From Archivesica marissinica (lineage: Eukaryota; Mollusca; Bivalvia; Venerida; Vesicomyidae): a stretch of DNA of 64,000 nt. How positions within the stretch are numbered: the first letter of the stretch is position 1; each line of letters starts with the position of its first letter. Shown in pieces: positions 7,874-64,000 of the stretch. Made by a program: the position numbers and the translations under genes. The notes under the pieces are model-generated. The model worked only from the letters and a program-made list of their open reading frames with translations, was not told where the DNA came from and did not search any database. The stretch spans positions 18,814,297 to 18,878,296 of the forward strand of contig CM026402.1 in the NCBI GenBank assembly GCA_014843695.1. Direction: 5' to 3'.

Positions 7874-8151
7874 ACAGACGAATCTGTAGTCCAGTGGTAA
7901 CACGCTGGACTGGTAATCCAGGGATCGCAGGTTCGATCCCCCGCCTGACCCTAATACAATTAACAGACTTTCAGATAAACCGAGGTCTCGTGTCGGTGCT
8001 TTACACCGTGCACGTAAAAGAACCAGATGAGACTCTGTAATGGGTCTCTGTCTGTATCATTGCACTATCCTCCAAAAATCTAAAATGACTAATCTTTCAG
8101 GAGGCGTCGCTCATATGGGCAACCGGTAGCGACGATGAATAAACGTAAAAA
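7874..8151 (+). mobile_element. tRNA-derived SINE, family 1, full length
   Basis: Head GTAGTCCAGTGGTAACACGC / GGTTCGATCCC, CCGAGGTCTCGTGTCGGTGC body, tail hairpin GCGTCGCTCATATGGGCAAC, end AATAAACGTAAAA. The repeat TAATCACA lies on both sides (7867 and 8163), a likely target duplication. Confidence 0.9.
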
Positions 8152-20838: not shown

Positions 20839-20918
20839 TAGTGGCATTCGTAACATAATCAACATTCATAATATTAACAGAAATACCCGGTCCAGTGAGT
20901 GGGCCTATTGGCCATGCA

Positions 20919-23086
20919 CCTAAACATGATGGTATATACATTGTAAGTGGGCATATATGTCACATAAACATGATGGTATATACATTGAAAGTGGGTATAT
21001 ATGTCACATAAACATGATGGTATATACATTGTAAGTGGGCATATATGTCACATAAACATGATGGTATATACATTGTAAGTGGGTATATATGTCACATAAA
21101 CATGATGGTATATACATTGTAGGTAGGTATATATGTCACATAAACATGATGGTATATACATTGTAGGTGGGTATATATGTCACATAAACATGATGGTATA
21201 TACATTGTAGGTAGGTATATATGTCACATAAACATGATGGTATATACATTGTAGGTAGGTATATATGTCACATACACGTGATGGTATATACATTGTAGGT
21301 AGGTATATATGTCACCTAAACATGATGGTATATACATTGTAAGTGGGCATATATGTCACATAAACATGATGGTATATACATTGAAAGTGGGTATATATGT
21401 TACCTAAACATGATGGTATATACATTGTAAGTGGGCATATATGTCACATAAACATGATGGTATATACATTGTAAGTGGGTATATATGTCACATAAACATG
21501 ATGGTATATACATTGTAGGTAGGTATATATGTCGCATAAACATGATGGTATATACATTGTAGGTAGGTATATATGTCACATAAACATGATGGTATATACA
21601 TTGTAGGTAGGTATATATGTCACATAAACATGATGGTATATACATTGTAGGTAGGTATATATGTCACATACACGTGATGGTATATACATTGTAGGTAGGT
21701 ATATATGTCACCTAAACATGATGGTATATACATTGTAAGTGGGCATATATGTCACATAAACATGATGGTATATACATTGAAAGTGGGTATATATGTCACC
21801 TAAACATGATGGTATATACATTGTAAGTGGGCATATATGTCACATAAACATGATGGTATATACATTGTAGGTAGGTATATATGTCACATAAACATGATGG
21901 TATATACATTGTAAGTGGGTATATATGTCACATAAACATGATGGTATATACATTGTAGGTAGGTATATATGTCACATAAACATGATGGTATATACATTGT
22001 AGGTAGGTATATATGTCACATAAACATGATGGTATATACATTGTAGGTAGGTATATATGTCACATAAACATGATGGTATATACATTGTAGGTAGGTATAT
22101 ATGTCACATAAACATGATGGTATATACATTGTAGATGGGTATATATGTCACATACACGTGATGGTATATACATTGTAGGTAGGTATATATGTCACCTAAA
22201 CATGATGGTATATACATTGTAGGTGGGTATATATGTCACATAAACATGATGGTATATACATTGTAGGTGGGTATATATGTCACATAAACATGATGGTATA
22301 TACATTGTAGGTGGGTATATATGTCACATAAACATGATGGTATATACATTGTAGGTGGGTATATATGTCACATAAACATGATGGTATATACATTGTAGGT
22401 GGGTATATATGTCACATAAACATGATGGTATATACATTGTAGGTAGGTATATATGTCACATAAACATGATGGTATATACATTGTAGATGGGTATATATGT
22501 CACATACACGTGATGGTATATACATTGTAGGTAGGTATATATGTCACCTAAACATGATGGTATATACATTGTAGGTGGGTATATATGTCACATAAACATG
22601 ATGGTATATACATTGTAGGTGGGTATATATGTCACATAAACATGATGGTATATACATTGTAGGTGGGTATATATGTCACATAAACATGATGGTATATACA
22701 TTGTAGGTGGGTATATATGTCACATAAACATGATGGTATATACATTGTAGGTGGGTATATATGTCACATAAACATGATGGTATATACACTGTAAGTGGGT
22801 ATATATGTCACATAAACATGATGGTATATACATTGTAAGTGGGCATATATGTCACATAAACATGATGGTATATACATTGTAAGTGGGTATATATGTCACA
22901 TAAACATGATGGTATATACATTGTAGGTGGGTATATATGTCACATAAACATGATGGTATATACATTGAAAGTGGGTATATATGTCACCTAAACATGATGG
23001 TATATGCGTTGCACGTGGGTATATATGTCACATAAACATGATGGTATATGCGTTGTACGTGGGTATATATGTCACCTAAACATGAC
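20919..23086 (+). repeat. 44-bp satellite, about 49 copies
   Basis: Unit CATGATGGTATATACATTGT + AGGTAGGTATATATGTCACATAAA, with AAGTGGGC, AGGTGGG and other variants. A rare CACGTGATGG variant at 21275, 21671, 22155 and 22507 is spaced 396, 484 and 352 bp, all multiples of 44. Confidence 0.95.
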
Positions 23087-24831: not shown

Positions 24832-25102
24832 GACGGATCTGTAGTCCAGTGATAGCACGCTGGACTGGTAATTCAGGGATCGCAGGTTCGATCCTCCGTC
24901 TGACCCTAATACAATTAACAGTCTTTCAGATGGGACTTTAAACCGTGCTGTACACCGTGCACGTAAAAGAACCAGATGAGACTCTGGAATGGGTCTCTGT
25001 TTGTATCATTACACTATCCTCCAAAAATCTAAAATGACTAAACTCTTCAGGAGGCGTCGCTCATATGGGCAACCGATAGCGACGATAAATAAACGTAAAA
25101 CA
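24832..25102 (+). mobile_element. tRNA-derived SINE, family 1, full length
   Basis: All family 1 parts are present with a small deletion around the CCGAGGTCTCG box. Near-identical TTATTACAAATCA (left) and TTATTGCAAATCA (right) flank it. Confidence 0.9.
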
Positions 25103-29852: not shown

Positions 29853-30788
29853 GATCTCAAGAGGCAGCTATTACATGTTCAAGGACCAAATACACGCTCT
29901 GTTCTTAGACTATCTACTGGCAAACTTGTTAATGATCTCAAGAGGCAGCTATTACATGTTCAAGGACCAAATAATGATCTCAAGAGGCAGCTATTACATG
30001 TTCAAGGACCAAATACACGCTCTGTTCTTAGACTATCTACTGGCAAACTTGTTAATGATCTCAAGAGGCAGCTATTACATGTTCAAGGACCAAATACACG
30101 CTCTGTTCTTAGACTATCTACTGGCAAACTTGTTAATGATCTCAAGAGGCAGCTATTACATGTTCAAGGACCAAATACACGCTCTGTTCTTAGACTATCT
30201 ACTGGCAAACTTGTTAATGATCTCAAGAGGCAGCTATTACATGTTCAAGGACCAAATACACGCTCTGTTCTTAGACTATCTACTGGCAAACTTGTTAATG
30301 ATCTCAAGAGGCAGCTATTACATGTTCAAGGACCAAATACACGCTCTGTTCTTAGACTATCTACTGGCAAACTTGTTAATGATCTCAAGAGGCAGCTATT
30401 ACATGTTCAAGGACCAAATACACGCTCTGTTCTTAGACTATCTACTGGCAAACTTGTTAATGATCTCAAGAGGCAGCTATTACATGTTCAAGGACCAAAT
30501 ACACGCTCTGTTCTTAGACTATCTACTGGCAAACTTGTTAATGATCTCAAGAGGCAGCTATTACATGTTCAAGGACCAAATACACGCTCTGTTCTTAGAC
30601 TATCTACTGGCAAACTTGTTAATGATCTCAAGAGGCAGCTATTACATGTTCAAGGACCAAATACACGCTCTGTTCTTAGACTATCTACTGGCAAACTTGT
30701 TAATGATCTCAAGAGGCAGCTATTACATTTTCAAGGACCAAATACACGCTCTGCTCTTAATCTATCTACTGGCAAACTTGTTAATGAT
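29853..30788 (+). repeat. 81-bp tandem repeat, open in two frames
   Basis: About 11.5 near-identical units (GATCTCAAGAGGCAGCTATT ... GGCAAACTTGTTAAT), one of them shortened. Since 81 = 27 codons, a 349-aa frame (29836-30885) and a 319-aa frame (29847-30806) run through it, with repeats containing SRGSYYMFKDQIHALFLDYL or LKRQLLHVQGPNTRSVL. No known domain. The last unit carries several changes. Most likely an intergenic minisatellite. Confidence 0.93.
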
Positions 30789-31009
30789 ATCATCAATACA
30801 TCATGACATTCATCGTCCATCATTAATGCCAATTAACTTCATTCATAAGCTGGCGAGAAGCCATATTCACCAAGACGGGTTTTAACACTATAAGCCCAAT
30901 TATTGACGCCATTTATCTTCCATTGATATTGAACATCAAATTCATATACCTCACATTGAATAGAGAGGTCTGACATTGATGAGCAAAGATCTGCACTGGC
31001 TTTAGTTTG

Positions 31010-31262: not shown

Positions 31263-32963
31263 ATCCCTGGATAAGATAAATTTTATTTGGAGTCGGCAAG
31301 ACATATCACAAATAACATAAGCTCTGATGAGATTTTATAACAACATGTGTATATGAATAACAGAAGTAAAACAGCTATGGGAAATAAAAATTTGATTTAA
31401 ATTAGACACTCTATGCTAAAACAGAACATGCTTATTTAGTCGAACAGTAAAATTAGACATAAGATGAACATAAGAAGCTACATAATAAAAGAATAAGACA
31501 ACAGCCATGCAGGCAACTAAGATGACGCATAAAAGAAAACTAAAAATGCAATCTAAACTATAGCTGAAATGAACTCCATGCTGATCCTTCATTGTGGACC
31601 CATTACCTGGCATAGTATACTACACACTTACAGTCATTTCCATTCCAAGATGAAATCAAGCTCTTGAAATGACTGAAGCTAGTTGTAGCCCTGAATTCAT
31701 CAGGTAGGAAAATCCACAGCACGGGAGCAGCATAGATGAACGTGTCTTACCGTATGTGCTGGTTCTTACATGTGGTATATTCAAAATATTTGAATATCTA
31801 AAGTTATATTTTGATTCCCTTTTTGCAACTGAATCACATAATACAGGAGGTGCTAGTTTATTTACAATTTTAAATGTTTCTAGTGCCATTGTTCTCATCC
31901 GTGCGTACATGCACAGTTGGAATGTTTGCTCTACACCACAATAGTTCAGCAACTGGTGTTTTATAATTATTGTGCACACATTTTATTGCACGATCCTGAA
32001 TGTGTTCCCATTTTCTTAGTATTTGGCTCGGAACAAAAATGCCATGCATGTGAACAAAAGTTGAAGTTTGACAGAACAAATGTGTGGAAAATTGTTAACC
32101 TGTTAATTTTGCTTAAGTTTTAGTATGTTCACTTGTTGTGCAGCTTTTTTACATACATTACTAATATGAAAGTCAAAGTTTAACTTACAATCAATGTCAA
32201 CACCCAGTAACTTTAACTACTTGGTCACATGAAATATTAGTTTCACCTAGTATAAAAACTGAACACTTACTAGCAGTTTTATTACCTACAGCTATAGACT
32301 GAAATGTATCAGGATTAGCCTGCATACAGTTAAAATGAAACCAGTCTTAAAATTTGACTTTCTGTTTGGAGAACATTTTAACCTCTTCAAAATTTGGAGA
32401 ATTAAACGATAAAGTATTGTCATCGGCATAGTTGTATAATGTGCCTCTTTGAATGAAATAAAATAATAGCATTTATAAATACATTAATTAACAGGGAACC
32501 GAGTATAGATCCTTGTGGCACCCTTTTGTAATATTATCCTTACTTATCCAATACTTACTGCTGCACCTATTTTAATTTGTTGTTTTCTTTTGGTAAGATC
32601 ATATTCTAACATGTTTACAGACTGTTTGGAAAGGCCATAATATGATAATTTTGCCAAGAGAATAATATGAGGCAAACAGTCAGAAGCCTTAGAGAGGTCC
32701 AAATGTATGACTGCTACATCGTCTTTTTTGTCTATGGCAACTTTCCAATATTCTAGTAATTTCAACAAAGTAGTTTGACAACCATGATTTTATTATATGT
32801 TCAAAATATGAAGATAGTTGTTTAGATAAGACTTTCTCAAAAATCTTGGATGGAATAGGCAAGATACTGATTGGCCCAGAGTTACATTTATCCACTGGAT
32901 CCTTCCCTTTAAATATAGGGGTAACTTGAGCTTGCTTTAGTATATCTGGGGAAATGCCATTGG

Positions 32964-35900
32964 TAGTGTGGTACATTTTGTAATGTTGTGGGAATTTTTG
33001 CTCAAGTTTGATTTTTTGTGTTATTTAGGTTATTTAGACACCAAAGAGTAAAAAAAGTATTTTATACATTTTTTTCAATCACTATATTGGCGGCCATCTT
33101 GAATTTCAAAATGGCCACCATTTCCAAACTATTCTGTACAATATCTCTACCTGTAGACAACCTAGGACATTGATGTTGGTGTCTATGCCCACATTTTAAG
33201 GGTACAGGAATCTGAAAATGCCATTATTAAAGTGTTAGTACATATGGATGTTAATATAACAGCTATGTGTGGAATGTGTGTGTACATATTATAGGATTTT
33301 TAGCAAAATAATTTTTTATTTAATATTGCACATGAACTTGTATAATTTATATGGCTTATGAATTTGGCTTACCATCATTTAAAATACTGTGGAAAGAGAC
33401 ATTAATTTATTCCCTATCAGAATCCATATCTACAGTTTGTTGTGTGTTTAAGCAGTTGTCATCACCCTCACATTCACACATCTCTGTACAGCACAGATTG
33501 TTCTGTTTACATGTACATCTACCAGAACACTAACTTTACAGTTGCACTTTAGTAGTTCTACGACTGCTGCTGGGGCAGCTTGCACAGCAGACACCAGCCT
33601 GTCATTGTCTTTCATCCAACATAGGTTACATGGATCAAGGAGTGTTGGATCAAGTACTCTATCCTGAGCCCATATATGTGCTTGAAGGTGAGAGCGCAAT
33701 ATATGTTGAAGCCAATCACCATCATTTGGCGGAAGCCGATCAACGCCTTCATTTGCAGAACGTCTTCTGTACTTCTGCAACCTCAGGGAACCAGGATCAC
33801 TACCGGAGACATTAGTTGTGCTTCCAAGCATACAAAGAAACTCTTTGCACCCAGTAATCACATCTTCCTGTGGCGTATCACCTTCTCCAAGTTGTGAAAG
33901 TGCTAAAATAATATGTTAAGGAGCCTTCATAAACACCTTCAGTCCTGTTTTCTTTCCAACTCTACTAATATGTCCTGTTGTGTCTGCTCCAGTGATGGCA
34001 TGGAACCCAGGCAAAGCAGCTGCCTTTTCTGACCCTAATTTTGTATAAATTGCTTCTAAGTCTACTCTTCTTCGATGTTCACTGGTGCCTGTTACAATAC
34101 CAGACTTTAAACCCAACAGATTTAGTCTTCGTAAAATGAGGACCCACAGTCTATGTCCTGTGTAAAGAAATCAACCTCATTACCATTTTCTTCATTCACC
34201 ACCTCCACTGCATGTAGCATCATGACAGTGTCTGCTTCCTCGTGTGTGCTGATGTCTGTGGTTGGGTGGTAATTTGGTAAGTTGTTTCATGATTTTCATG
34301 CGAGTTGCTGTAACTACTGGCTTCTTACACAGTGCTATTTCTTTCTCAGCTAAGAAGAAGGTAAGCTGATCTTTAGTCTTCTTGCTAGATAGAAACTTTG
34401 TTTTGTCCTTTATAGGAGTGGAAATCTCAATATGTAGGTCTTCACTAGGGCAATCCTTCCCGTATCTGATGTTGTCCTTGATTTGTAATTTCTTGGCATA
34501 ATTGTCAAAAATGTGTCCACCAGTGTATTCATTTAGCATGGCATCAATGTTATTAGCAAAAGTTTTGCCAAGATCTTCACAGGACATAAATGTGACTGCA
34601 TGCACCATCGCCTCAACAACTGCCATGTCATCTATAATGAGGTATCTCTTGTTGATGTTGGATGTAATAGATTGATTGTCATTCGACTTTAGCTGATACT
34701 CGTTGGTGTTACTTTTGATAGTTATCTTCTTGGACAGATTATCCCAGTTTTTATATTTCAGTTTGGTCATACGGCCCCACAAGTTTACATCTCCACGTAT
34801 ACGGTTTTCGACAAAGGATTCCTTTGCATTTTCTCCTCGAACCTCTAAGTTAAGAACACTTTCCTGTGTTTCTTTTCCCAACACTTTCTTGCTCATGCAG
34901 TTAAATAGATGTGCTCCTTTGTCTTTCAATATCTTTAGCTGAATATGCACATGAAGTGAATTCCACAATATTCTGAGCATAATCCAGTCTGTTGTAGGCA
35001 AAAACGTATGTGGAAAGTTTTTCCAAAGATGCTAAATACAATGGTAAGTTGGGATCCTTGACAGATCGATGGAAATACAGAAGTGTCTGGACTTGGTGCA
35101 TGTATATATGAATCCATCTATACATAGGAAATGCGTCATGGCTCTTGTCAAAATCATCCAACTGTTTTTCTATATTTATGCTTTCTATCTGTACCATCAA
35201 TCCTTTGTGGAAAATTTGAATAGCTGTTCTGTCAACAAGGTCACCTCTACATGCTTCAGCCAAAACACCCAAGCTGCTATTTAGAGCTAGTTGCACTTGA
35301 GGATTTTCAGAAAAGTATTCCTGGAACCAAAGGTTAGATAACACTTGTAATGTTGTTTCATGAGCATCCACAGCTCGGTTGTGGTGGCTACCATTTATTA
35401 TTTGATTGATAACAACTGAGCCGTACAGTCCCGATTGAACCCAGGTCTCGTCGATACCACTATGCTCTATAGTCTTCCCTAAACACCTGATAGAACAAAG
35501 ACTGGTGTGAAAAGGGCCTGGCAATATCCACCACTTATCCTTGTACTGGTCACTGAGATGCTTGAATTTAACTTCCCTTTTGTAAAGGTCCATATCAAAA
35601 GTAACCATGATCTTTCTATTGTTCTCAGGACATACAACTCTATGTAGCTGATATAAGTGTTCTAATATTGTCACCAGTGTGGACAACTCATGAGCTGGAT
35701 TATTTATTATGGACAGAGAGTGGTTATAGTCAACATTCAGTAACATTTTAATAGCATTCATTCATATTTTGTTAAACACCTCTATAAAACATGTTAAACC
35801 ATCATCTTAGTACAATTTATATTAGTTTGATGTGTTCTGCAATATTGTTAATGTAATTTCCAGATTCCCAGACTCCTAAAATGTGGGTATATGTACCAAA

Positions 35901-36177
35901 ATCAAGGCCCTATATCATCTACAAGTAGAGATATTGTCCAAAATAGGTTTAAAATGGTGGCCATTTTGAAATCCAAGATGGCCGCGAATATAGTGATTGA
36001 AAAAAAATTCCCACAACTATTTTAAAAGCTACAAAATGTGCCAATATAGTGATTGAAAAAAATGTATAAAATACTTTTTTTACTCTTTGGTAACTAAATA
36101 ACATAAATAACACAAACAATCAAACTTGAGCAAAATTTCCCGCAACTATTTTAAAAGCTACAAAATGTACCACACTA
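32964..36177 (-). mobile_element. 3.2-kb TIR DNA transposon, possibly Academ-like, inserted in a LINE
   Basis: Both ends carry the inverted terminus TAGTGTGGTACATTTTGTA (32964 rightwards, 36177 leftwards). Inverted similarity continues for about 150-250 bp, including CAAGTTTGATT, AAGTATTTTATACATTTTTT and a GCGGCCATCTTG box. TGG flanks both ends (32961-32963, 36178-36180) as a 3-bp target duplication. Removing the element and one TGG restores the reading frame of the surrounding LINE. Inside is one broken gene on the minus strand. A 3-4 bp duplication and a nuclease-like plus Cys-rich protein are what I recall of the Academ superfamily; this was not checked. Confidence 0.85.
33440..35761 (-). 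pseudogene. Transposon protein with FDxxLY, HEEAD, TG(A/C)D and Cys-rich motifs, frameshifted
   Basis: Frame 35761-34901 (286 aa) has VTFDMDLYKREVKFK, LPGPFHTSLCSI and a helical region with DAHETTLQVLSN. It passes by frameshift into 35001-34192, which holds KESFVENRIRGD, YLIIDDMAVVEAM and DNYAKKLQIKDNIRYGKD. HEEADTVMMLHA is read in another frame at about 34240-34205. 34116-33916 has LPGFHAITGADTTGHISRVG, and 33861-33448 has RLPPNDGDWLQHI and PAAVVELLKCNCK. The Cys-rich tail then needs a further frame change (CTCK, CCTEMCECEG) at about 33520-33460. This motif order belongs to an uncharacterised protein type common in marine invertebrate genomes. The middle looks like a PIN/XPG-type nuclease fold and the N-terminal part may be a DDE-type transposase. 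Four or more frameshifts make it a pseudogene, unless some are assembly errors. The usual N-terminal part seems absent. Confidence 0.7.
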
Positions 36178-36180
36178 TGG

Positions 36181-37060
36181 AGATAGGCATATTAACAAGT
36201 TTTGTAATTGGTGGGACTAATGCCTCCTTACCAGGAGATAGACATATTAACAAGTTTTGTAATTGGTGGAACTAATGCCGCCTTACCAGGAGATAGACAT
36301 ATTAACACGTTTTGTAATTGGTGGGACTAATGCCTCCTTACCAGGAGATAGACATATTAACACGTTTTGTGATTGGTGGGACTAATGCCTCCTTACCAGG
36401 AGATAGACATATTAACACATTTTGTAATTGGTGGGACTAATGCCTCCTTACCAGGAGATAGACATATTAACAAGTTTTGTAATTGGTGGAACTAATGCAG
36501 CCTTACCAGGAGATAGACATATTAACAAGTTTTGTAATTGGTGGGACTAATGCCTCCTTACCAGGAGATAGACATATTAACACGTTTTGTAATTGGTGGG
36601 ACTAATGCCTCCTTACCAGGAGATAGACATATTAACAAGTTTTGTGATTGGTGGGACTAATGCCTCCTTACCAGGAGATAGACACATTAACAAGTTTTGT
36701 GATTGGTGGGACTAATGCCTCCTTACCAGGAGATAGACATATTAACAAGTGTTGTGATTGGTGGGACTAATGCCTCCTTACCAGGAGATAGACATATTAA
36801 CAAGTTTTGTAATTGGTGGGACTAATGCCTCCTTACCAGGAGATAGACACATTAACAAGTTTTGTGATTGGTGGGACTAATGCCTCCTTACCAGGAGATA
36901 GACACATTAACAAGTTGTGTGATTGGTGGGACTAATGCCTCCTTACCAGGAGATAGACACATTAACACGTTTTGTGATTGGTGGGACTAATGCCTCCTTA
37001 CCAGGAGATAGACACATTAACAAGTTTTGTAATTGGTGGAACTAATGCCACCTTACCAGC
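36181..37060 (-). repeat. 55-bp tandem array derived from LINE reverse-transcriptase codons
   Basis: About 16 copies of a 55-bp unit (plus-strand core AGGAGATAGACATATTAAC, then GGTGGGACTAATGCCTCC). On the minus strand the unit reads ALVPPITKLVNMSIS, the reverse-transcriptase segment just before the transposon insertion point. As 55 is not a multiple of 3, the array destroys the frame. Confidence 0.9.
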
Positions 37061-37572
37061 TTTTACTAATTTGACTGAGATTTTATCAGCACCAGTTGCT
37101 TTTTTGGGATTAAATTTAGTTATAATTTTTGAGATATCTACCTCTTCTACTGGTTTAAAATTAAAACTAATATCCATAACACATTTTTCTTGGATGATTT
37201 GACTGATCAAACACATAATCCTTGCCAATGTCTTTGGCAACATTTGTTAAAAAAATAATTAAATATCTCAGCAACTTTAGAATTTTCTGACACAGTCTTA
37301 CTAATTTCATTTAGAATATTTTTATGTTGTGTATTTACAGATTGTTTGGACACTTATGGCTTAATAGTACCCCAAAAATCAGAAGTTTTACTTCCACATA
37401 TACATCTTTCCTGGAAATATTTATTTATAGATTTTTTCTTTAGTTTATTTACACAATTCCTACACTTTCTATAATTCATGTTTTAGAGTTTTTGGATTTT
37501 AAAAATTTATTATACTACATTTTCTTTTGGTATATTGCTTTTCATAACTCACTGTTCATGTAAGGTACCTGG

Positions 37573-46099: not shown

Positions 46100-46212
46100 C
46101 TTAAACTTTATTTGTTTTTACAACAATTGCGAAGCAAGCTTTAACAACTGATATTAATCAGTCTCGTTGGCGTGGATGAAAGTGTAAATGCGGTCATTTG
46201 TGGAAGGAAACC
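46100..46212 (-). mobile_element. SINE, family 5 tail, cut by the start of a satellite
   Basis: Minus-strand tail CAATTGCGAAGCAAGC and CTCGTTGGCGTGGATGAAAG; the rest of the element is replaced by the 39/43-bp array. Confidence 0.8.
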
Positions 46213-48480
46213 AAGCTAGCATGCTATTTGGGAGTAGTACATATAGGGCTCAAGCCATCGATCATGCTATTTGGGAGTAGTACATATTGGGCTCAAGCTA
46301 GCATGCTATTTGGGAGTAGTACGTATTGGGCTCAAGCCATCGATCATGCTATTTGGGAGTACTACATATTGGGCTCAAGCTAGCATGCTATTTGGGAATA
46401 GTACATATTGTGCTCAAGCTAGCATGCTATTTGGGAGTAGTACATATTGGGCTCAAGCTAGCATGCTATTTGGGAGTAGTACATATAGGGCTCAAGCTAT
46501 CGATCATGCTATTTGGGAGTAGTACATATTGGGCTTAAGCTAGCATGCTATTTGGGAGTAGTACATACAGGGCTCAAGCTAGCATGCTATTTGGGAGTAG
46601 TACATACAGGGCTCAAGCTATCGATCATGCTATTTGGGAGTAGTACATATAGGGCTTAAGCTAGCATGCTATTTGGGAGTAGTACATATAGGGCTCAAGC
46701 TAGCATGCTATTTGGGAGTAGTACATACAGGGCTCAAGCTAGCAGGCTATTTGGGAGTAGTACATATAGGGCTCAAGCTATCGATCATGCTATTTGGCAG
46801 TAGTACATACAAGGCTCAAGCTAGCATGCTATTTGGTAGTAGTACATATTGAGTTCAAGCTATCGATCATGCTATTTGGGAGTAGTACATATAGGGCTCA
46901 AGCTAGCATGCTATTTGGGAGTAGTACATATTGGGCTCAAGCTAGCATGCTATTTGGTAGTAGTACATATTGGGTTCAAGCTATCGATCATGCTATTTGG
47001 GAGTAGTACATATTGGACTCAAGCTAGCATGCTATTTGGGAGTAGTACATATTGAGCTCAAGCTAGCATGCTATTTGGGAGTAGTACATACAGGGCTCAA
47101 GCTATCGATCATGCTATTTGGGAGTAGTACATATAGGGCTCAAACTATCGATCATGCTATTTGGGAGTAGTACATATTGGGCTCAAGCTAGCATGCTATT
47201 TGGTAGTAGTACATACAGGGCTCAAGCTAGCATGCTATTTGGGAGTAGTACATACAGGGCTCAAGCTAGCATGCTATTTGGGAGTAGTACATACAGGGCT
47301 CAAGCTAGCATGCTATTTGGGAGTAGTACATACAGGGCTCAAGCTATCGATCATGCTATTTGGGAGTAGTACATATAGGGCTCAAGCTATCGATCATGCT
47401 ATTTGGGAATAGTACATATAGGGCTCAAGCTAGCATGCTATTTGGGAGTAGTACATACAGGGCTCAAGCTAGCAGGCTATTTGGTAGTAGTACATATTGG
47501 GTTCAAGCTAGCATGCTATTTGGGAGTAGTACATATTGGGTTCAAGCTAGCATGCTATTTGGGAGTAGTACATACAAGGCTCAAGCTAGCATGCTATTTG
47601 GTAGTAGTACATATTGGGCTCAAGCTAGCATGCTATTTGGTAGTAGTACATATTGGGTTCAAGCTAGCATGCTATTTGGGAGTAGTACATATTGAGCTCA
47701 AGCTAGCATGCTATTTGGTAGTAGTACATATTGGGCTCAAGCTAGCATGCTATTTGGGAGTAGTACATATTGGGTTCAAGCTATCGATCATGCTATTTGG
47801 CAGTAGTACATATCGGGTTCAAGCTAGCATGCTATTTGGGAGTAGTACATATTGAGCTCAAGCTAGCATGCTATTTGGGAGTAGTACATATTGGGTTCAA
47901 GCTATCGATCATGCTATTTGGGAGTAGTACATATTGGGTTCAAGCTAGCATGCTATTTGGTAGTAGTACATATTGGGCTCAAGCTAGCATGCTATTTGGT
48001 AGTAGTACATATTGGGCTCAAGCTAGCATGCTATTTGGTAGTAGTACATATTGGGCTCAAGCTAGCATGCTATTTGGTAGTAGTACATATTGGGCTGCGC
48101 TCAAGCTAGCATGCTATTTGGTAGTAGTACATATTGGGCTCAAGCTAGCATGCTATTTGGGAGTAGTACATATTGGGTTCAAGCTAGCATGCTATTTGGT
48201 AGTAGTACATATTGGGCTCAAGCTAGCATGCTATTTGGGAGTAGTACATATTGGGCTCAAGCTATCGATCATGCTATTTGGGAGTAATACATACAGGGTT
48301 CAAGCTAGCATGCTATTTGGTAGTAGTACATACAGGGCTCAAGCTAGCATGCTATTTGGTAGTAGTACATACAGGGCTCAAGCTAGCATGCTATTTGGTA
48401 GTAGTACATACAGGGCTCAAGCTAGCAGGCTATTTGGTAGTAGTACATACAGAGCTCAAGCTAGAAGGTTATTTGAGAGA
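46213..48480 (+). repeat. Satellite of two interspersed monomers, 39 and 43 bp
   Basis: About 56 units. The common unit has CTCAAGCTAGCATGCTATTT; the longer has CAAGCTATCGATCATGC in that place. Both continue GGGAGTAGTACATATTGGG with GGT/GGG, CAGGG and TTGGG variants. Confidence 0.94.
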
Positions 48481-61352: not shown

Positions 61353-61424
61353 CAGAATCGGCGAATTGCTTGTCAATGTATATTTGCTAGCCATTGTTCA
61401 TATTTCTATGGTGTGCTTTGCATA

Positions 61425-64000
61425 TATTGCTTGTTAATGTATATATTGCTTGTTAATGTATATATTGCATGTATATATTGCTGGTTAATGTATATATTGC
61501 TGGTTAATGTATATATTGCTTGTTAATGTATATATTGCTGGTTAATGTATATATTGCTGGTTAATGTATATATTGCTGGTTAATGCATATATTGCTGGTT
61601 AATACATATATTGCTTGTTAATGTATATATTGCTTGTTAATGTATATATTGCTGGTTAATGTATATATTGCTGGTTAATGTATATATTGCTTGTTAATGT
61701 ATATATTGCATGTATATATTGCTGGTTAATGTATATATTGCTGGTTAATGTATATATTGCTTGTTAATGTATATATTGCTGGTTAATGTATATATTGCTG
61801 GTTAATGTATATATTGCTGGTTAATGCATATATTGCTGGTTAATACATATATTGCTTGTTAATGTATATATTGCTTGTTAATGTATATATTGCTGGTTAA
61901 TGTATATATTGCTGGTTAATGTATATATTGCTGGTTAATGTATATATTGCTGGTTAATGTATATATTGCTGGTTAATGTATATATTGCTGGTTAATGTAT
62001 ATATTGCTGGTTAATGTATATATTGCTGGTTAATGTATATATTGCTGGTTAATGTATATATTGCTGGTTAATGTATATATTGCTGGTTAATGTATATATT
62101 GCTGGTTAATGTATATATTGCTGGTTAATGTATATATTGCTTGTTAATGTATATATTGCTGGTTAATGTATATATTGCTGGTTAATGTATATATTGCTGG
62201 TTAATGTATATATTGCTGGTTAATGTATATATTGCATGTATATATTGCTGGTTAATGTATATATTGCTGGTTAATGTATATATTGCTTGTTAATGTATAT
62301 ATTGCATGTATATATTGCTGGTTAATGTATATATTGCTGGTTAATGTATATATTGCTGGTTAATGTATATATTGCTGGTTAATGTATATATTGCTGGTTA
62401 ATGTATATATTGCTGGTTAATGTATATATTGCTGGTTAATGTATATATTGCTGGTTAATGTATATATTGCTGGTTAATGTATATATTGCTGGTTAATGTA
62501 TATATTGCTGGTTAATGTATATATTGCTGGTTAATGTATATATTGCATGTATATATTGCTGGTTAATGTATATATTGCTGGTTAATGTATATATTGCTGG
62601 TTAATGTATATATTGCATGTATATATTGCTGGTTAATGTATATATTGCTGGTTAATGTATATATTGCTGGTTAATGTATATATTGCTGGTTAATGTATAT
62701 ATTGCTGGTTAATGTATATATTGCTGGTTAATGTATATATTGCTGGTTAATGTATATATTGCTGGTTAATGTATATATTGCATGTATATATTGCTGGTTA
62801 ATGTATATATTGCTGGTTAATGTATATTGCTGGTTAATGTATATATTGCTGGTTAATGTATATATTGCTGGTTAATGTATATATTGCTGGTTAATGTATA
62901 TATTGCTGGTTAATGTATATATTGCTGGTTAATGTATATATTGCTGGTTAATGTATATATTGCTGGTTAATGTATATATTGCTGGTTAATGTATATATTG
63001 CTGGTTAATGTATGTATTGCTGGTTAATGTATATATTGCTGGTTAATGTATATATTGCTGGTTAATGTATATATTGCTGGTTAATGTATATATTGCTGGT
63101 TAATGTATATATTGCATGTATATATTGCTGGTTAATGTATATATTGCTGGTTAATGTATATATTGCTGGTTAATGTATATATTGCTGGTTAATGTATATA
63201 TTGCTGGTTAATGTATATATTGCTGGTTAATGTATGTATTGCTGGTTAATGTATATATTGCTGGTTATGTATATTTGCTGGTAATGTATATATTGCTGGT
63301 TAATGTATATATTGCTGGTTAATGTATATATTGCTGGTTAATGTATATATTGCTGGTTAATGTATATATTGCATGTATATATTGCTGGTTAATGTATATA
63401 TTGCTGGTTAATGTATATATTGCTGGTTAATGTATATATTGCTGGTTAATGTATATATTGCTGGTTAATGTATATATTGCATGTATATATTGCTGGTTAA
63501 TGTATATATTGCTGGTTAATGTATATATTGCTGGTTAATGTATATATTGCTGGTTAATGTATATATTGCTGGTTAATGTATATATTGCTGGTTAATGTAT
63601 ATATTGCTGGTTAATGTATATATTGCTGGTTAATGTATATATTGCTTGTTAATGTATATATTGCATGTATATATTGCTGGTTAATGTATATATTGCTGGT
63701 TAATGTATATATGCTGGTTAATGTATATATTGCTGGTTAATGTATATATTGCTTGTTAATGTATATATTGCTGGTTAATGTATATATTGCTTGTTAATGT
63801 ATATATTGCTGGTTAATGTATATATTGCTGGTTAATGTATATATTGCTGGTTAATGTATATATTGCTGGTTAATCATATATTGCTGGTTAATGTATATAT
63901 TGCTGGTTAATGTATATATTGCTGGTTAATGTATATATTGCTGGTTAATGTATATATTGCTGGTTAATGTATATATTGCTGGTTAATGTATATATTGCTG
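61425..64000 (+). repeat. 19-bp satellite with a 13-bp variant, running off the window
   Basis: More than 120 units of TTGCTGGTTAATGTATATA, with TTGCTTGTTAATGTATATA and short TTGCATGTATATA units interspersed. It continues to the last base. Confidence 0.96.

Follow-up and report, generated by a model that had tools for sequence, protein, structure and literature searches.

Superfamilies of cut-and-paste DNA transposons leave duplications of characteristic length or sequence at their targets: hAT and P elements an 8-bp duplication, Kolobok TTAA and Tc1/mariner TA. To our knowledge, neither the P element nor hAT (Hermes) or RAG1/Transib has a FEN-type nuclease domain, and the nuclease of the Academ superfamily is the one that we take to go by the name XPG. 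According to an excerpt of PMC10045372, duplications are 3 or 4 bp in AcademX and 9 or 10 bp in AcademH, in relation to the encoded nuclease or helicase, and an excerpt of PMC10294476 reports that Academ has amplified in bivalves, whose curated elements average 5,565 bp. Here we describe a 3,214-bp element (32964-36177) in a 64,000-nucleotide stretch of contig CM026402.1 from the bivalve Archivesica marissinica, referred to throughout as the window, which is very probably what remains of an AcademX-type cut-and-paste DNA transposon inserted into a long interspersed nuclear element (LINE). For one nuclease-type, Academ-like element, this locus fixes the exact ends and the duplication.

Insertion site and element ends

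The case for a transposon is carried by the LINE empty site. When the element is removed and the flanks are joined with a single TGG, the minus strand gives ...VPPITKLVNMPISNGISPDILKQAQVTPIFKG... and reads through a LINE reverse-transcriptase segment. A 128-residue query spanning the junction matched 11 of 17 candidate proteins at E ≤ 0.001, and all 11 align without gaps between a point 5 residues ahead of MPIS and one about 20 residues past the junction; because of this alignment, both boundaries and the 3-bp length of the duplication are fixed, the latter as measured on one insertion only. A 4-bp duplication was ruled out by the flanking sequence together with the same gap-free alignment. 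Pfam gave no significant match in the two LINE pieces of the window or in the joined LINE peptide, and the identity of the LINE comes instead from its 11 homologues, four of which have a precomputed PF00078 match. The original prediction, made from the letters of this stretch, had proposed a TGG duplication, a LINE frame restored by deleting the element with one TGG, and boundaries resolved to the base; on all these points it was right (Table 1).

The two ends of the element (TAGTGTGGTACATTTTGTA; 32964-32982 on the plus strand and 36159-36177 on the minus strand) are complementary at 19/19 positions, and this 19-bp pattern, with up to 3 mismatches allowed, occurs at only 2 sites in the 64 kb, both of them element ends (chance expectation 0.04). 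Inward of these ends, the two arms are similar in inverted orientation, the left one over 263 nt and the right one over 329 nt, with identity at 231 of the 263 aligned positions. The arms align with a score of 348.5, whereas end pairs drawn at random from the window (n = 2,000) reach 222 at most; the stretch for scoring had been picked after the BLAST match had been seen. Both the matching ends and the long subterminal similarity that had been claimed for the element were thus recovered. The right arm is longer than the left mainly because it holds a repeat of its own outer part (89% between the two copies), a partial second terminal copy at 35997-36062 from which we conclude that the end was duplicated within the element. 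In viral contigs, the exact 19-bp end was not found.

Table 1. Coordinates of the element, its gene remains and its insertion site within the window
Feature	Position	Strand	Basis or remarks
Left terminal inverted repeat	32964..33226	+	outer 19 bp perfect
Right terminal inverted repeat	35849..36177	-	outer 19 bp perfect; internal duplication 35997-36043 / 36126-36172
TGG target-site duplication, left copy	32961..32963	.	sequence
TGG target-site duplication, right copy	36178..36180	.	sequence
Interrupted LINE reverse-transcriptase open reading frame, downstream part	32689..32963	-	homologue alignment
LINE reverse-transcriptase open reading frame, upstream part	37059..37246	-	homologue alignment
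Minisatellite, 16 units x 55 bp, LINE-derived	36179..37058	.	left edge inside TGG duplication
DDE-transposase piece	34934..35734	-	FDMDLY (second catalytic Asp), GxFH, part of helical insertion; P0001 53-321 at 61%
Internal deletion junction	34932..34934	-	P0001 322-435 gone, including DQxxEH motif with catalytic Glu
Segment linking transposase and nuclease	34684..34932	-	P0001 436-518
Second internal deletion	34653..34684	-	P0001 519-588 absent
FEN1/EXO1-like nuclease piece (limits approximate)	33598..34653	-	IDDMA, FDNY, KDNIR, EEAD, QDID, GAD retained; frameshifts 34264-34283, 34146; fold predicted from relative
In-frame stop within nuclease piece	33916..33918	-	sequence
Cys-rich CXC-like tail	33431..33550	-	frameshift ~33529

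Encoded protein and its relatives

Gene remains in the element lie on the minus strand, in three frames whose pieces match the relative P0001 over its residues 53-321 (61% identity), 436-518 and 589-1002. Missing from the window copy are the two intervening stretches of P0001 and the part before its residue 53, the latter about 725 residues as gauged against P0008 (1,688 residues). With three frameshifts and a stop in what is left, and with only the second Asp of the catalytic Asp-Asp-Glu (DDE) set present, the window copy is a deleted, broken relic from which a working protein is not expected. The motifs named in the original prediction are indeed present, but they fall into three different frames, a stop interrupts them and the copy is internally deleted, none of which it had mentioned. 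The transposase pieces of the window copy had no significant match in Pfam, and the nuclease piece had no match among solved structures searched by sequence.

A read-through query of the window gene matched 7 proteins, and an alignment of 6 of these 7 (A1) matched 58, including 5 already found, for a total of at least 60 transposase relatives. This number is a lower bound because both searches scored only the roughly 7,990 candidates sharing most words and admitted lengths of 0.55-1.75 times the query, so that longer proteins would escape. Among the matches listed, 11 relatives are 1,625-1,688 residues long and are probably near full length. Conservation counts cover the rows of two alignments, A2 with 29 of the 60 relatives (leaving out P0004, P0005, P0007 and P0033-P0060) and A3 with 32 of the 60. 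The Pfam family DUF6589 was matched at E ≤ 1 by 24 of 29 scanned relatives; a precomputed match exists for 29 of the 58 relatives listed, and two of the first seven pass its curated cut-off. For the Cys-rich tail, Pfam matches were weak, to the Tesmin/TSO1 CXC domain in 4/29 relatives and to MSL2-CXC in 1/29.

Viral contigs yielded no relatives with P0001 or alignment A2 as query, and prokaryote genome contigs yielded with A2 a single match, L001 (residues 1-71 of 480 at 32%), which was set aside and unused. Bacterial symbiont assemblies hold two relatives, P0040 in a metagenome-assembled genome (MAG) of Sedimenticola and L001 (1-3067) in a Poribacteria MAG; both may derive from animal hosts whose DNA ended up in the symbiont assemblies.

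Structure models were obtained for two relatives rather than for the window copy. In one, the nuclease part is predicted to adopt the FEN1/EXO1/XPG fold, in keeping with the earlier description of the protein as nuclease-like. The modelled fold and an acidic residue set that is invariant in the aligned relatives place the relatives' nuclease in the FEN1/EXO1/XPG superfamily, and order and motif suggest which of its acids would correspond singly to those of FEN1. Unlike FEN1, EXO1, XPG and GEN1, to whose listed structures the model is 9-15% identical, the nuclease is fused to a transposase in long relatives. The DDE core of a relative is predicted to have an RNase H fold that carries a helical insertion, like those of the P element, hAT and RAG1. 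Its D-D-E is conserved among aligned relatives. In the conservation counts, column D77 is Asp in 26/26, and column E522 is Glu in 28 of 30, the exceptions being P0005 (Asp, near the fragment end) and P0059 (Arg). Foldseek alone gave no match for the DDE model at E ≤ 0.001, and solved structures searched by sequence gave no meaningful match for alignments A2 or A3.

By this modelling, DUF6589, which Pfam lists as a domain of unknown function, gains a structural reading: in the relatives scanned, it would overlap the part of a P/hAT/RAG1-kind DDE core that reaches the catalytic Glu. The predicted fusion of such a core to a FEN1/EXO1-type nuclease in the long relatives raises the question of what use a flap nuclease of its own would be to a transposase. 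In the library of papers searched, the only hit for DUF6589 / PF20231 was an unrelated paper, and there was no paper uniting Academ, XPG, transposon and target site duplication, and none with at least four of XPG, FEN1, transposase, DDE and Academ.

We propose that the long relatives each produce a single protein of about 1,650 residues whose DDE core (the DUF6589 region) would bind the inverted ends of about 260 bp, excise the element and attach its 3′ ends to a target staggered by 3 bp, which would yield the TGG duplication. Judging from the FEN fold in the model, the fused nuclease would most likely remove 5′ flaps or overhangs at gaps or element ends. The CXC-like tail may bind DNA; the order of cleavage, the nuclease substrate and the role of the tail are all putative here. 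The window copy presumably either relied on protein made by a complete element when it moved, or lost its coding capacity only afterwards.

Classification and alternative explanations

The nuclease of the relatives and the 3-bp duplication fit the rule for AcademX given in the excerpt of PMC10045372, so that the tentative Academ label of the original prediction finds a match, by description only. As in AcademX, a DDE transposase and a nuclease occur together in the relatives, and the duplication here is one of the two printed lengths (PMC10045372, excerpt). Relatives of 1,625-1,688 residues would suit the mean length of bivalve Academ elements (PMC10294476, excerpt), in contrast to the window copy, which at 3,214 bp is short, internally deleted and broken. 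AcademH, placed in the same superfamily by the excerpt of PMC10045372, was rejected: it has a helicase and 9- or 10-bp duplications, whereas the duplication here is 3 bp and the 15 Pfam families with matches in the 29 scanned relatives include no helicase. From the anatomy and the one printed duplication rule, we infer membership in Academ.

Three points weigh against this assignment and the transposon behind it. The putative kinship with Academ is drawn from anatomy and that printed rule; the DDE fold scores (Z) of the relative's model are moderate; and the repetitive window abounds in perfect inverted 19-mers (1,650 pairs), because of which 19-bp ends alone would be weak evidence.

We give little chance to another DDE superfamily (hAT, P, Kolobok or Tc1/mariner), or an undescribed one that merely resembles Academ, as the source of the element. 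The P element and Hermes have the same DDE fold, and the model of the relative shares core and helical insertion with them and with RAG1/Transib, but all of these, as far as we know, differ from it in duplication length and in having no FEN-type nuclease domain. A 3-bp TGG fits neither the 8 bp of hAT or P, which were rejected for this reason, nor the TTAA of Kolobok. Since the element ends start with TA, a TA duplication of the Tc1/mariner kind is imaginable; this reading, however, leaves 5 extra bases and breaks the LINE frame and the spacing kept in 11/11 homologues, whereas the TGG reading aligns free of gaps. The match to Academ is one of description, and a nuclease with a 3-bp duplication fits what is printed for AcademX (PMC10045372, excerpt). 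Hardly credible is a fragment of a host gene or a domesticated nuclease lying between unrelated repeats, with no transposon at all: the nuclease has kept its conserved residues while the transposase part was cut down, as such an origin might lead one to expect, yet the nuclease part is itself frameshifted and carries a stop, and the base-exact ends, the TGG duplication and the clean empty site in the LINE speak against it.

Adjacent tandem array and other features of the window

The 55-bp array next to the element has its left edge at 36179, within the right TGG. Its 15 extra units amount to 825 bp, a length that happens to leave the LINE frame in register. As an addition to the AcademX-type insertion, not in its place, we considered that the array was produced by the insertion through repair slippage at the element end, which we regard as unlikely. 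The position of the edge inside the duplication favors it, as 0.5% of positions in the window are no more than 2 bp away from the edge of an array; the coincidence is, however, a single case spotted after the fact, and arrays of period ≥10 (n = 34, chosen by hand from the tandem-repeat listing) fill 26% of the window, because of which an array already present in the LINE before insertion is easily believed. There is a very slim chance that the transposon's flap nuclease or unfinished end repair seeded the minisatellite, as slippage across 55 bp of the LINE lengthened the strand-transfer gaps at the element end; in that case, an AcademX insertion would leave behind a tandem array starting at the target duplication.

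Other arrays in the window include those at 20917-23085 (44 bp), 46212-48479 (39 bp) and 61422-64000 (19 bp), and an 81-bp repeat at 29972-30792 (about 10 copies, 99% matches) has long plus-strand open frames. A piece of another retroelement at 2257-2736 has a weak Exo_endo_phos_2 match (E 0.0022, under the curated cut-off). Two tRNA-like sequences, at 7880-7952 and 24835-24907, reach the Rfam gathering score, and BLAST of the far flank of the LINE matches short pieces within them (7890-7918 and 24845-24872), a pairing that may point to tRNA-derived short interspersed nuclear elements.
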